Positions 43,373 through 49,481 of a stretch of DNA of 64,000 nt are shown piece by piece. The first letter of the stretch is position 1; the number at the start of each line of letters is the position of its first letter. The stretch is from Bacillota bacterium (GTDB taxonomy: Bacteria; Bacillota; TC1): positions 1-64,000 of the forward strand of contig JAGXHY010000022.1 in assembly GCA_024635925.1 (NCBI GenBank), written 5' to 3'. Below the pieces are notes generated by a model that saw only the letters and a program-made list of their open reading frames with translations, did not search any database and was not told the DNA's origin. Made by a program: the position numbers and the translations under genes.

Positions 43373-43444
43373 AAAAACACTCCTTATCATAACCTTAAAA
43401 ATTCATCTATTTAATTAATAACCCAATCAAAAAATACTAATCCT

Positions 43445-43478
43445 TATGAATCCACTTTATGAATCCACTTTATGAATC
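43445..43478. repeat. Short 13-bp tandem repeat
   Basis: The unit TATGAATCCACTT occurs twice in full and then in part (8 bases) in the gap between the DUF2779 gene and the hydrolase cluster. The rest of this 275-base gap shows no gene. Confidence 0.7.
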
Positions 43479-43665: not shown

Positions 43666-44982
43666 TTAATATGAACCACTTAATGTGAAATCTCCTTCAC
43701 TCTTAAGATAAGAGTTAAAAAATTCCAGACTAACCATATTTATTGTTTTTAGATAGTATAATGTTTTATCAGAATCATTCTTTCCATCTAAGATACCTGT
43801 TAAAATCGGACTAGTAATGGCAAAATCAGTTAAAGCTAGATGACCAGCACCTCTAATATAAACATTAAATACATCTTCAATCTTTTCATCTAACATTCGG
43901 TAATTTACTTCATATTGCGGTCGTTTTGCAAGTATGGCCCATGCGCTATCTGAATAAACATTAAGTACTGGAATAGGGTAATCCATATCTGTGAAAATAA
44001 ACTCTTTGTTCTCTACTCCTTCAATATCGTACATATATGGAGATTCAAGAGCAATGACTGCTTTAATATCATCTCTGATCCTACCCATTCCAAGGGCTGC
44101 TGAGCCACCAAGGGAATGTCCCATAACACCAACTTTATTAATATCCATAAGTTTATATACCATATCTGTATTATCTTTTTTTGTTTCCCCAATTACATAG
44201 TCTATAACAAAATCCATATCATCTGTACGAATTTCCATCCACTTTTGATAATATTTATAACTTTGTTGTATATCAGATAGTGAATTTTCAAAAAGTAATT
44301 CCTTCATATAACCAAAATTGATAAATGTAGTATTTCCAGACTCATCTTTAGTATAAAAACATTGATATGTGTGATCTATAGATAAAACCACATAACCATG
44401 GCTTGCAAGCTCATTGTAAAGGGACTCATTACTCGACTTTATACCAAGGCCTCCATGTGAAAAAACAATAAGTGGGTACCTTCTTTTATAATTATCAGGA
44501 TACCAAACCTTCACATTTAATTTTCTATTTTCAACAGTACTGATATAACTTTCCAACCGATTTTTATCAATGTATGTATAACTTTTAGTTTTAACTTGAT
44601 ATTGACCTGTATAATCCACTATTTTTTTGTTTTGAGGGAATAAAATTGCTGGGAGAATTAGTATAAAGAATAGCACAGACATCCCTATTGTTCTTAACAC
44701 AACTCTAACTACTTTATACTCTCCTTTTTCTTTCTTTCCTCTAACTAGCGTTTTTACTCCAATAATTGACGTTAATAGCAAAAAAAATGCTAGAGCATAA
44801 TATCTAAAACTAAAGTCAATAATTGATAAAATAACAAGTAACATAAAGACGATAAAAGATACAATACGGAGAATACTTTTTTCTGTTAAGTGATTTGATT
44901 TTGTAATTATACTAAATGTTGCAAATAAAATTTCAACAAATACTACAGTAAAAAATATGATTACTCCCATTTTTTCCCTCAA
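43666..44982 (-). CDS. Membrane-anchored alpha/beta hydrolase (PAF-acetylhydrolase/dienelactone-hydrolase like)
   Basis: Four N-terminal helices (about residues 1-120) precede an alpha/beta hydrolase domain. The oxyanion segment is VFSHGGLGIKSS, the nucleophile elbow GVMGHSLGGSAAL and the likely catalytic histidine is in RGAGHLALTDFA. An aspartate lies in VLNVYSDSAWA. The layout resembles PAF-acetylhydrolase-like lipases. It is the last of a three-gene run with another hydrolase and a CPBP protease, with gaps of 12-17 bases. Confidence 0.82.
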   Translation of the reverse strand: MREKMGVIIFFTVVFVEILFATFSIITKSNHLTEKSILRIVSFIVFMLLVILSIIDFSFRYYALAFFLLLTSIIGVKTLVRGKKEKGEYKVVRVVLRTIGMSVLFFILILPAILFPQNKKIVDYTGQYQVKTKSYTYIDKNRLESYISTVENRKLNVKVWYPDNYKRRYPLIVFSHGGLGIKSSNESLYNELASHGYVVLSIDHTYQCFYTKDESGNTTFINFGYMKELLFENSLSDIQQSYKYYQKWMEIRTDDMDFVIDYVIGETKKDNTDMVYKLMDINKVGVMGHSLGGSAALGMGRIRDDIKAVIALESPYMYDIEGVENKEFIFTDMDYPIPVLNVYSDSAWAILAKRPQYEVNYRMLDEKIEDVFNVYIRGAGHLALTDFAITSPILTGILDGKNDSDKTLYYLKTINMVSLEFFNSYLKSEGDFTLSGSY

Positions 44983-44994
44983 TTCAACTTATCT

Positions 44995-46044
44995 TTATTT
45001 CTTAATACTCTCTATAAAAAACTCATTAATTTTATCCATCAAAATAAGATTTATATCTTGGGCTAAAGCACGATCAATTTTAGAATAAAAATCTTTTTTT
45101 ATTTCATATGGAATATTCTGTTCATAATGGTCATATAATTTTCGATATTTAATATTAATTTTATCAATATAGCCCATACTTGCATCAGATTTAAATATAT
45201 TGTTATGACCACTATGTCCATGTTCATTTAATAATATAGTCTTTACCTTAGTATTAGTAATCTTATTTATTTTCGAAATAATGGAACTGCCCTCATAAGA
45301 AACAGACTCATCTTCCATACCATGTATAATAAGAACTGGAACATCTGATTTATTGATAGCATCTACTGCCTTTAAAGATGCTGTTTCTCCAAATAAAATT
45401 CTTTGATATAACCATAAATATGGGTATTGTATTTTAATAAAATCACCCATCATACTTCTACCTTGCTCTATAATCATTTCCATTGGACTATTAGCACCAG
45501 ACACTGTAACTACAGCTTCAATCTTAAAATCATAATGCAAAATATTAGCTACAGCATAACCACCCCAACTATGACCAAACAAAAGAATCGGTAGATTATT
45601 AAATTCTTCCTGTGATTTTATATAAGTTAACGCCGAATTCAAATCAATTAATGCTTGAGGAAATCCCTTTGTTGTCTTACCTTCACTATCAAAACTTCCT
45701 GTAGCATCATAAGCAAAAACAGACCAACCCTGGTCAACAAAATATTTTATTTGAGGTAAATAACTATCAGCACCACCTCCAAGTCCATGAACAACTACTA
45801 CAAGACCTTTTTTATTATTTAAACCATAAACATATCCTTGTAAAAGATTTTTTTCTGATTTAAAGTTGACCAAATTTCTAGAATACTTATCTTCAATATC
45901 TTCATATCTCAATTCTGCAGTAACCTTAGAATCATGTCTGTCATATCTAGGAAATTGACCATTATAGATAAACATTACAATAATAAAAGAAATAATTGAA
46001 AAAAGTAAAACTAATCCTACTATACTCAAACTTACAATTTTCAT
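44995..46044 (-). CDS. Alpha/beta hydrolase with N-terminal membrane anchor
   Basis: One N-terminal helix (5-30) precedes the hydrolase domain with VVVHGLGGGADSYLPQIKYF, nucleophile elbow LLFGHSWGGYAVAN, an acid in LIIHGMEDESVSYEG and a histidine in LNEHGHSGHNN. A C-terminal helix of about 70 residues follows. It resembles serine aminopeptidase or lysophospholipase-like enzymes. The substrate is unknown. It is in an operon with the neighbours on both sides. Confidence 0.82.
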   Translation of the reverse strand: MKIVSLSIVGLVLLFSIISFIIVMFIYNGQFPRYDRHDSKVTAELRYEDIEDKYSRNLVNFKSEKNLLQGYVYGLNNKKGLVVVVHGLGGGADSYLPQIKYFVDQGWSVFAYDATGSFDSEGKTTKGFPQALIDLNSALTYIKSQEEFNNLPILLFGHSWGGYAVANILHYDFKIEAVVTVSGANSPMEMIIEQGRSMMGDFIKIQYPYLWLYQRILFGETASLKAVDAINKSDVPVLIIHGMEDESVSYEGSSIISKINKITNTKVKTILLNEHGHSGHNNIFKSDASMGYIDKINIKYRKLYDHYEQNIPYEIKKDFYSKIDRALAQDINLILMDKINEFFIESIKK

Positions 46045-46061
46045 AACTTACCTCCAATATC

Positions 46062-46820
46062 TTAATAAATAGCATAAAAAGCAATAATAAAACTAATCGT
46101 TGAAATCAAATTACATAAGCAATGAAATACAATTGATATGAATATATTTTTCTTTTTCCAAGCTATATAAGCAGCTGGAAGAAAGATAGCAATTCGAAAC
46201 AAATTATTGAAGGGAAGCCAAAAATGATAGAGTGAAAATAGCACTGTAATAATGACAGGTGCAAATCTCCCAAATCTACTAATTTTTGAAGTAAGATACC
46301 CTCTAAAAAATAACTCTTCAACAATTGGTCCAATAAAAACATTAAGTATAAAATAAGCGACAATCGTTATCAACAAGATATTATTTGAATATGTCTTAAG
46401 ATATTCCAAGTTGTTCCAATTAAAATATTCTGGTAATATATTAGATAACTTATCTGCAAAGGGTGCAGTCAATATATTTTCTAATGGAACTACGATTACA
46501 GACATAAGCCCAGCAAATCCAAATAATAAAAGACTGTAAATAAGAATTTTCCACCAACTCATTTTTTCATAATTGGCAAATGCACTTTTTAAAGAATAAC
46601 TTCCATGTTTCTTTTTACTTGCATTAAGGACCACAAACAACTCTATAGGAAATAGAATTAGAAGGGCCAAAAGAAAAAATAACAAAATCGATGGTATAGT
46701 GTTTTGTAATAGTCCTAATACAATATAAGAGATAGTTAATATTGAAGTAGGGATAAATACTAGCCCAAATAATTTTGTTAAACTAATATTTTCTGGTATC
46801 TTCAAAATTGATTTTTTCAT
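46062..46820 (-). CDS. CPBP-family intramembrane metalloprotease
   Basis: Six to seven helices carry the CPBP motifs: FIGPIVEELFFRGYLTSKI (EExxxR), then ITVLFSLYHFWLPFNNLF and IAIVFHCLCNL-like histidine motif (SIVFHCLCNLISTI). Such proteases cleave within membranes; some process prenylated or peptide signals. The start is the ATG six bases after GAGG. It heads the hydrolase operon. Confidence 0.87.
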   Translation of the reverse strand: MKKSILKIPENISLTKLFGLVFIPTSILTISYIVLGLLQNTIPSILLFFLLALLILFPIELFVVLNASKKKHGSYSLKSAFANYEKMSWWKILIYSLLLFGFAGLMSVIVVPLENILTAPFADKLSNILPEYFNWNNLEYLKTYSNNILLITIVAYFILNVFIGPIVEELFFRGYLTSKISRFGRFAPVIITVLFSLYHFWLPFNNLFRIAIFLPAAYIAWKKKNIFISIVFHCLCNLISTISFIIAFYAIY

Positions 46821-46883
46821 AATTAGCCTCATTCTTTATTATAAATTCTCTCTTTTTCATGAAACACAAAATAAGTAATTCAT

Positions 46884-47030
46884 CTATTTTTCAACAACCC
46901 TTTTAAAATAATGCCAGCACCAATTAACTGCAACAATTTCCCAACCATCACGACCATATTCATTTAGTTTTCTAGTAGTGCTTTCTCCTAATCCACAAAT
47001 AAAAATACATTTATACTCATATAATTTCAT
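46884..47030 (-). CDS. 48-residue DUF4177-like protein
   Basis: A short reading frame begins with ATG nine bases after AAGGAGGG and encodes MKLYEYKCIFICGLGESTTR, then KLNEYGRDGWEIVAVN and WCWHYFKRVVEK. The pattern YEYK..LNEYGxxGWE(I/L)VAV..W..YFKR is that of DUF4177. The strong ribosome site and complete frame support a real gene although it is very short. Function is unknown. Confidence 0.72.
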   Translation of the reverse strand: MKLYEYKCIFICGLGESTTRKLNEYGRDGWEIVAVNWCWHYFKRVVEK

Positions 47031-47087
47031 TTCTATCATCCCTCCTTCATTAGTTAAATATAGATCTTCATTTTTTAATAAGTTATA

Positions 47088-47630
47088 CTATATTATTCTT
47101 CTTGGCAATCTTTTCACCTCAAAGACTAATAGCATACTAAATATAACTACTACTAATACCATGATTCCTGCTACCATGTAAGGTGGAAAATTAATACCTA
47201 TAAATAAAGCAGTAATTGGTATAATAACAGACATAACCATATAACTTTTTGATTGGTATAACCAACTATATGGTAGTAAGTGGGAACCGAAAATCATAGC
47301 TATTATCATCACCATTTTTTCTGGTACTGTTGGATAAATCCACATTGCAATTAGTAAATATAACATTTGATTAAATGAAAACAATAATCCCAAATTAGTT
47401 AGTGGATTACCTTTGTTTGTAAAGTCCACTTTTATCATTTTGGAAATCATATAAGCCAAGGGCACTAGTGGGGCAGTAAAGCAAAACGTAAGAAAGTTTT
47501 TTGAAAGTATAGGTAGTGATGTGAAATGAATACCCGTTACAATTGACCATATTATAATAGATGCAAGTATAAAGTGTAGCCCTTTTTTTTGTTTTACAGA
47601 ACAATCTAAACGCATTTCTTCTAAATTCAT
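47088..47630 (-). CDS. Membrane protein (DUF7010-like)
   Basis: The protein is 180 residues with about six helices. It opens MNLEEMRLDCSVKQKKGLHF before ILASIIIWSIVTGIHF, a beginning seen in a small Firmicutes membrane family (DUF7010-like). It ends 57 bases before the DUF4177-like gene on the same strand. No function is known. Confidence 0.65.
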   Translation of the reverse strand: MNLEEMRLDCSVKQKKGLHFILASIIIWSIVTGIHFTSLPILSKNFLTFCFTAPLVPLAYMISKMIKVDFTNKGNPLTNLGLLFSFNQMLYLLIAMWIYPTVPEKMVMIIAMIFGSHLLPYSWLYQSKSYMVMSVIIPITALFIGINFPPYMVAGIMVLVVVIFSMLLVFEVKRLPRRII

Positions 47631-47826
47631 TATTCATTCTCCTTTTTACTTAAATCAATAAAGTTAGTATCTGAAATCAAAATATATAAATGCTAAAATG
47701 TAATATATTTTTAATATTTATAATATTATACCATACTATTATAAATACATGTTATCAAACCTTATGAAAATATATACGATTGAGAACTTTTACATAAAAT
47801 AAATAATCATAATTTTTTTGTCAGAG

Positions 47827-48783
47827 TTAATTATTCAATTCTGATAAAAATTCATCTGTAATTTCTGATATTCTATTAACCTTGTTGAGGTATATAAAAT
47901 GCGTTCCCTCTAGAATCTCATATTTTGTCTGATCACCAATGCGGGCAAGGTGCTGTTTTTGATATTCTTGGGGGGTTATCTTGATTTGGCTATTTTTTGT
48001 TTCATATGTTTGCTTGGAAATTATCTTGAAGAAAGGGACATTCTCCGGATACTTCAACTTGTTAACATCCTTGATATAGTCGGTAGTACTTGCAATCTGT
48101 TCTAAAGTATTATCATTCATAGAAAATCCAGCGTAATAAATCAGGTCACTAATTTCTTTTTTTGTATAGCCAATAGAAATCAACTTGTCTTTATTGGTGG
48201 CTATAGGAGCTAGAATAGAAGATAATCCTATAGCTTGTTGAATCTTAACTAAACCAAGTAATGACTTAACAAAATCGGGCATATCATCTCCTATATAAGC
48301 AGTAGAGCTTCCATCAAGAGATATAATAGCTTTCACTTCATCAGGATATTTTGAAGCATAGTATTCACTGTATACGCTCGATATAGAGTGGGCCATTAAA
48401 ATATAAGGATAATCAACCCCTGCTCTTTTTAGTGCTGTACGAATTTCTTCCACATAGTTTTTTGAAGTTCTTGCTCTCTTGGTTTGACTACTAAACCCAA
48501 CACCGAAATACTCTATGCAGACTACTGTATATTTTTCACTTAGACTGCGCATAAGTGGACCAAAATCTGCTGATGGTAGCCCAATACCCATCCCAGGAAG
48601 TAAAATGATTGTTTCTTTGCCACTTCCCATTTTGTAGACATGCATTTTCCCATCATAGACCTCAATCATTTGACCGTATGGTTCTATACTTTCCTTTTTT
48701 TTCTCAAAATATGTTGCGTGTAAAATAGTACCGATCAGTATAAATACAGTAATCAACCCGAGAATAATACCAAATATCATCAT
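47827..48783 (-). CDS. Alpha/beta hydrolase with N-terminal membrane anchor
   Basis: A single N-terminal helix is followed by an alpha/beta hydrolase with IILLPGMGIGLPSADFGPLM, nucleophile elbow LMAHSISSVYSEYY and C-terminal histidine in EILEGTHFIYLNK. The elbow AHSIS lacks the usual glycine after the serine position. The gene follows its likely regulator by 60 bases and probably shares its promoter. Confidence 0.82.
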   Translation of the reverse strand: MMIFGIILGLITVFILIGTILHATYFEKKKESIEPYGQMIEVYDGKMHVYKMGSGKETIILLPGMGIGLPSADFGPLMRSLSEKYTVVCIEYFGVGFSSQTKRARTSKNYVEEIRTALKRAGVDYPYILMAHSISSVYSEYYASKYPDEVKAIISLDGSSTAYIGDDMPDFVKSLLGLVKIQQAIGLSSILAPIATNKDKLISIGYTKKEISDLIYYAGFSMNDNTLEQIASTTDYIKDVNKLKYPENVPFFKIISKQTYETKNSQIKITPQEYQKQHLARIGDQTKYEILEGTHFIYLNKVNRISEITDEFLSELNN

Positions 48784-48843: not shown

Positions 48844-49353
48844 TTACTTCTCCTCAGGTGCAGATATGATTGAAATATCTCTGGCCTTTCTCCCCTTTGA
48901 AAACTCAAAATTATACTTTTTAAATAGATCACCTAACTCCGATAAAAACTGATCAAACTCATCATCTGTCATCATAAGTATCGTGTTGTTAAAAAATATT
49001 TTATCTTTTCCAGTATTGGCATTTATATCTTTAAAATAGTTATGAAACAACACATATTTTTTCATCAAAAAAGTAAACGCATTTTGTGAAGCATTTTCTA
49101 ACGTGTTGTTCTTCATTATTTCTCCAGTATTTATAGCTAGTGTTCTTTCAAGACTTCCTCTTATTTTTTGTTCTGAAATGACTGACAGAATATCGCTGTC
49201 CAACAAAATTTTAATATGCCGGTACAGAGTAGTTCGAGGAACATCACTTATTTTTTCGGAAATTTCTGTTGCGGTCATAGTTTGTTTTACAGCAAGCGTC
49301 TGTATAATTCTCATACGCACTGGATTCAGCATAATATCGTTAATATTTTTCAT
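48844..49353 (-). CDS. ArsR-like winged-helix regulator
   Basis: A winged helix covers residues 1-75 (MLNPVRMRIIQTLAVKQTMT, ATEISEKISDVPRTTLYRHI, KILLDSDILSVISEQ). The C-terminal ~90 residues form an effector or dimer domain of unknown ligand. It lies upstream of, and in line with, the hydrolase gene. Its 5' UTR is occupied by a 9-bp G-rich tandem repeat that ends at the ribosome site GGAGG. Confidence 0.85.
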   Translation of the reverse strand: MKNINDIMLNPVRMRIIQTLAVKQTMTATEISEKISDVPRTTLYRHIKILLDSDILSVISEQKIRGSLERTLAINTGEIMKNNTLENASQNAFTFLMKKYVLFHNYFKDINANTGKDKIFFNNTILMMTDDEFDQFLSELGDLFKKYNFEFSKGRKARDISIISAPEEK

Positions 49354-49361
49354 AGTGTACC

Positions 49362-49451
49362 TCCACTTATCCCACTTATCCCACTTATCCCACTTATCCC
49401 ACTTATCCCACTTATCCCACTTATCCCACTTATCCCACTTATCCCACTTAT
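49362..49451 (-). repeat. 9-bp G-rich minisatellite in the regulator's 5' UTR
   Basis: Nine perfect head-to-tail copies and one copy with a single change form a 90-bp array (plus-strand unit CCCACTTAT). On the coding strand this gives ten evenly spaced G-runs (GGGATAAGT repeated), enough for G-quadruplex formation in DNA or mRNA. The last, altered copy blends into the ribosome site of the regulator gene. The repeat number can be expected to vary by slippage. Confidence 0.9.
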
Positions 49452-49452
49452 T

Positions 49453-49481
49453 ATATTAATTCAATAATTGGTATAAGTCAA
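49453..49481 (-). promoter_or_regulatory. Probable promoter of the winged-helix regulator
   Basis: TTGACT (49476-49481) is followed after 17 bases by TAATAT (49453-49458), with an overlapping TATAAT three bases further. Transcription would start at the edge of the G-rich array and so include it in the mRNA. Confidence 0.55.

Follow-up and report, generated by a model that had tools for sequence, protein, structure and literature searches.

The perfect 9-bp minisatellite that occupies the 5' leader of a winged-helix regulator gene probably arose by the recent multiplication, in a single lineage, of the downstream half-site of the operator through which the regulator would control its own gene. 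As judged from the comparison of orthologous promoters, the 9-bp unit is most likely the half-site of the operator of an autoregulator, and the array has the appearance of a recent stutter in a self-regulating switch, not of a device around G-quadruplexes.

A perfect 9-bp array in the leader of a regulator-hydrolase operon

The window, i.e., the whole stretch of 64,000 nucleotides that was analysed, harbors the following elements of the regulator operon:

49363..49452, minus strand: 9-bp minisatellite, 10 units ATAAGTGG(G) (TRF and sequence)
49476..49481, minus strand: -35 box TTGACT (sequence; TTGA[CT]T in equal register in the orthologous loci L020, L027 and L028)
49453..49458, minus strand: -10 box TAATAT with a 17-bp spacer (consensus match only)
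49360..49364, minus strand: Shine-Dalgarno GGAGG, end of the tenth repeat unit (sequence)
48844..49353, minus strand: winged-helix regulator, 169 aa (Pfam HTH_20; near NCBIfam PRK06474.1; PDB relative 4g6q by sequence)
47827..48783, minus strand: alpha/beta hydrolase, 318 aa, in the regulator's operon (order kept in L020, L027 and L028)

TRF retrieved positions 49363-49451 as 9.9 copies with 100% matches and a score of 178, by far the top score in the window. Read on the minus strand (ATAATAAGTGGGATAAGTGGG...ATAAGTGGAGGTACACTATG), the array consists of 10 perfect units. The sequence-only reading had counted GGG every nine bases, ten times; the perfect 9-bp array is indeed present, but it contains nine GGG runs, since in unit 10 the sequence is GTGGAGG, which constitutes the Shine-Dalgarno. 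The same reading had correctly placed the array between promoter and ribosome site on the coding strand of the winged-helix gene (TTGACT-N17-TAATAT to start codon), where the repeat fills the regulator's 5' leader, with the hydrolase further downstream. By sequence, the putative promoter is of the sigma-A type, and its -10 box is overlapped by TATAAT in another register. The array adjoins the ribosome site and runs into it, and few of its bases are complementary to that site.

In the 1.43-Mb genome, neither a second copy of the array nor any other site with the GGG-N6 pattern repeated four times was found. The array was likewise absent from 149 other genomes of relatives when three units were searched for with up to 3 mismatches, and the leader had no match in Rfam (one chance match fell elsewhere). 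The unit number is that of one assembly. Ten identical units would suit a phase-variation device, in which frequent changes in unit number shift regulator and hydrolase levels between cells, and precedents exist in the Moraxella uspA2 (AGAT)n repeat (PMC7302503, PMC4679880) and in Mycobacterium tuberculosis promoter tandem repeats (PMC12817950). We nevertheless regard such a device as unlikely, given the absence of the array from those 149 genomes and the fact that a hydrolase operon is an atypical contingency locus.

With regard to the regulator itself, a score of 54.9 bits against Pfam HTH_20 (PF12840; gathering cut-off 27) makes it a member of that family, while its 116 bits against NCBIfam PRK06474.1 lie below the curated cut-off of 121, so that it is a near relative only; we describe it here as HTH_20/ArsR-like. 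Orthologous regulator-hydrolase pairs were present in L020 (82% protein identity), L027 (69%) and L028 (48%), and searches around G383, G342 and the window's own class yielded no further close orthologs. A search of same-genus genomes at E 1e-15 did not recover the regulator, and relatives on plasmids or phages were distant or none. This scattered occurrence, together with the different genes upstream of the pair in L020, suggests that the regulator-hydrolase pair may have moved horizontally.

Two further observations concern this gene neighborhood. In L028 (2065-3032), the hydrolase beside the regulator is split into two ORFs of 180 and 129 aa. Behind the window's regulator, three alpha/beta-hydrolase-type genes, a CAAX-type protease and a DUF7010 gene stand in a row (43666-48783, minus strand), and the last hydrolase gene is followed downstream by a perfect 13-bp tandem repeat, TTATGAATCCACT, in 2.7 copies (43444-43478).

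An inverted repeat conserved in orthologous promoters, with the unit as one arm

The promoters of the window, L020, L027 and L028 were aligned free of gaps from the -35 box. In the three orthologs, no array is present; there, the unit forms the downstream arm in the inverted repeat ACTTATtCCA-N22-TGGaATAAGT, whose arms flank the -10 box. The corresponding elements in the window are:

49469..49478, minus strand: putative upstream arm of the operator, ACTTATACCA, which shares bases with the -35 box (N22 inverted repeat, four orthologs)
49437..49446, minus strand: putative downstream arm of the operator, TGGGATAAGT, at about +1, followed by the other eight of nine tandem copies (N22 spacing, four orthologs)

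Arm 1 reads ACTTATACCA in the window, ACTTATTCCA in L020, ATTGATTCCA in L027 and ACTTGTTTCA in L028, and arm 2 reads TGGGATAAGT, AGGAACTAAT, TGGAATCAAT and TGAGATAAGT, respectively. The two arms match each other at 9/10 positions in the window, 10/10 in L027 and 8/10 in L028, the downstream arm of L020 being poor (6/10). The spacing is equal in all four promoters and changes in the arms are matched, most clearly in L027, where both arms are altered jointly (ATTGATTCCA / TGGAATCAAT) and still agree at 10/10. Across the four promoters, two of which are fairly similar, the best inverted repeat was the one at N22, with 33/40 arm matches, a value reached by 1 of 2000 column shuffles; with the window left out, 24/30 matches remained (reached by 3 of 2000). 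Sliding arm 2 by 1-8 bp reduced the matches to at most 16/40. Outside the regulator locus, no further operator copies (N22, up to 3 mismatches) were detected in the genome.

Thus, at the sequence level, an inverted repeat such as would be expected of an autoregulatory operator is conserved in the regulator's own promoter in four orthologs. Given the overlap of arm 1 with the -35 box and the position of arm 2 close to the expected transcription start, arm 1 falls outside the transcript, so that the symmetry must work at the DNA level. The arms are separated by 32 bp from center to center, and the usual site of a single winged-helix dimer is shorter than this.

More distant homologues of the regulator point in the same direction. 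In 6-7 of 11 of them, a palindrome TTATCA-N4-TGATAA is present in the regulator's own promoter (upstream of the homologue in L010, L011, L029, L031, L033, L035 and L036). In several of these, its right half starts at a distance of 35 bp from the -35 box, matching the layout of the window, and in some an extra TTATCA lies just past the -35 box and ends at the same position as arm 1. The equivalent position of the palindrome argues for autoregulation at this site as a family trait. The recognition helix is altered in the four members of the clade, which carry RTT, vs. QAT in most other homologues. It is therefore likely, as far as these comparisons go, that autoregulation through a promoter site is a habit of the family, and that both half-site and recognition helix have changed in this clade. 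For this HTH_20 group, in which TTATCA-N4-TGATAA recurs, we know of no described operator.

Weighing G-quadruplex and other RNA-based readings

The sequence-only reading had proposed that four of the GGG runs suffice for a G-quadruplex, so that the mRNA could fold back on its own ribosome site. Formally, the motif qualifies: nine GGG runs with six-base loops fit G3N1-7, and the array is the only such motif in the window. When quadruplexes were allowed, Vienna placed two within the array (-9.4 vs. -3.3 kcal/mol), whereas with quadruplexes off the array stayed unpaired save for a 4-bp hairpin at the Shine-Dalgarno. Moreover, quadruplexes in 5' UTRs do alter translation in E. coli, where Lee and others found that they enhance it, longer loops more so (PMC11087576); the introduction of that paper refers to previous reports of inhibition by a quadruplex close to the Shine-Dalgarno. 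However, the predicted stability is low, with about -2.7 kcal/mol for each quadruplex and a G4Hunter value of 1.04, and the leaders of L020, L027 and L028 contain no GGG runs. Nor does the predicted structure bear out folding onto the ribosome site, since it ends about 6-9 nt ahead of the Shine-Dalgarno, adjoining that element without including it. What the proposal overlooked is the match of the unit to one arm of the conserved inverted repeat, which accounts for the sequence of the unit. A switch in which at least four of the nine runs stack in the leader RNA or the non-template DNA and tune translation or transcription is thus quite improbable in our judgment, and the quadruplex potential may be a by-product. 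A G-rich array can, as this case illustrates, resemble a quadruplex device though protein binding explains its sequence better.

Even further from our expectation is a post-transcriptional element, made of tandem two-codon ORFs, weak Shine-Dalgarno mimics or GGA motifs for a CsrA-type protein, which we hold to be very unlikely. One frame of the array does read GTG GGA TAA, but this is not kept in the orthologs. Pairing of the unit with the anti-Shine-Dalgarno was estimated at -4.3 kcal/mol, compared with -10.7 kcal/mol for the duplex of the real site with the canonical anti-Shine-Dalgarno; a mimic is conceivable from the former value, yet such pairing of the unit to 16S rRNA is weak. A DnaA box was also considered as the identity of the unit and discarded, as TTATCCCAC and TTATCCACA agree by inspection at only 6/9 positions.

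Origin and possible effects of the array

The distance from the -35 box to the ATG is 128 bp in the window and 56 bp in L020, the closest ortholog, and the excess of 72 bp amounts to exactly eight 9-bp units, which identifies the array as a lineage-specific expansion. Arm 2 of the window, TGGGATAAG, is the repeat unit, and in L027 as well as in the window arm 2 resembles the Shine-Dalgarno word, which lies 9 bp from it (AATGGAATC AATGGAGG and AAGTGGGAT AAGTGGAGG, respectively); the 9-bp self-match of the downstream arm is the best in the window, L027 and L028 and is tied in L020. This similarity would have given slippage a start.

The sequence of events that we propose is as follows. The HTH_20 regulator would most likely bind ACTTATtCCA-N22-TGGaATAAGT, bracketing its own -10 box, and, when bound, would repress the regulator-hydrolase operon. 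The ancestral promoter would have had AAGTGGgat, its downstream half-site, beside the Shine-Dalgarno AAGTGGagg, and slippage between these two similar 9-bp words would have added eight units. Half-sites would thereby have come to lie one after another, nine in all, between about +1 and the ribosome site, and the leader would have grown by about 72 nt.

Whether such an expansion matters to the cell is a separate issue. Slippage between the two words might have done no more than lengthen the leader, a neutral reading that we consider less likely. The identical units and their occurrence in one lineage fit recent slippage, and scrambled 9-mers of the same composition occurred in tandem in viral contigs about as often as the unit did (6, 2 and 0 contigs vs. 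5). On the other hand, the array is part of a conserved putative operator and adjoins the gene of a likely autoregulator, for which reason the added half-sites probably have some effect, and the perfection of the units could equally reflect homogeneity being maintained.

Viral contigs that share the 18-mer of the array were rejected as relatives, their contexts being unrelated to the operon and the scrambled controls about as frequent. In one phage-like contig (L025:10731-10799), a near-identical 9-bp array, GTAAGTGGG, lies within a 271-aa ORF and encodes VSGISG repeats; in a viral contig (L021:3230-3560), several AAGTGGGATAAG-like sites occur in both orientations, apparently non-coding and operator-like, though unrelated to the window operon.

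Under the operator half-site reading, the extra copies may strengthen autorepression (by extra binding or as a roadblock), act as decoys or be near-neutral. Steps of 9 bp keep the half-sites off one helix face, which makes simple cooperative stacking doubtful. Most likely, in our view, they modestly alter the regulator level while unit number drifts, and the perfection of the units makes length change plausible. A bolder proposal is that slippage readily multiplies the half-sites of this autoregulator because half-site and Shine-Dalgarno are near-identical neighbors, unit number setting the strength of autorepression as an evolvable dial on the feedback loop; this we put forward as a long shot. 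Other tandem repeats have been described between promoters and start codons, few of them, to our knowledge, with an assigned unit. Reading the unit as a transcription-factor half-site with a possible source makes the effect of repeat number on feedback directly testable.

Comparison with known systems

According to PMC4679880, experiments on bacterial tandem repeats located between a promoter and its start codon had covered two cases, both from Moraxella catarrhalis. The uspA2 (AGAT)n repeat occupies the same position as the window array, and its number is reported to vary and to be able to alter expression (PMC7302503; PMC4679880, citing Attia and Hansen 2006). In contrast, its unit is 4 bp long and precedes a surface protein gene, whereas the 9-bp unit of the window is a putative operator arm that precedes a regulator. 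The promoter repeats of M. tuberculosis are likewise tandem promoter DNA that may change gene output; they have been shown to vary within populations (PMC12817950), while the window array is known from one genome. Marine Beggiatoaceae carry TAACTGA heptamers, likewise short and in tandem immediately before start codons (PMC4679880), but these occur genome-wide in 2-6 copies and often replace the Shine-Dalgarno, unlike the single locus in the window, where the last unit supplies it. A further likeness is to the likely HTH_20/ArsR-like autoregulators (L010, L029, L033, L035 and L036; PDB 4g6q relative), which share with the window an operator-like inverted repeat in their own promoter, in several cases at an equal distance from the -35 box; their repeat is the palindrome TTATCA-N4-TGATAA, whereas the window has outer arms at N22, one of which has been amplified.
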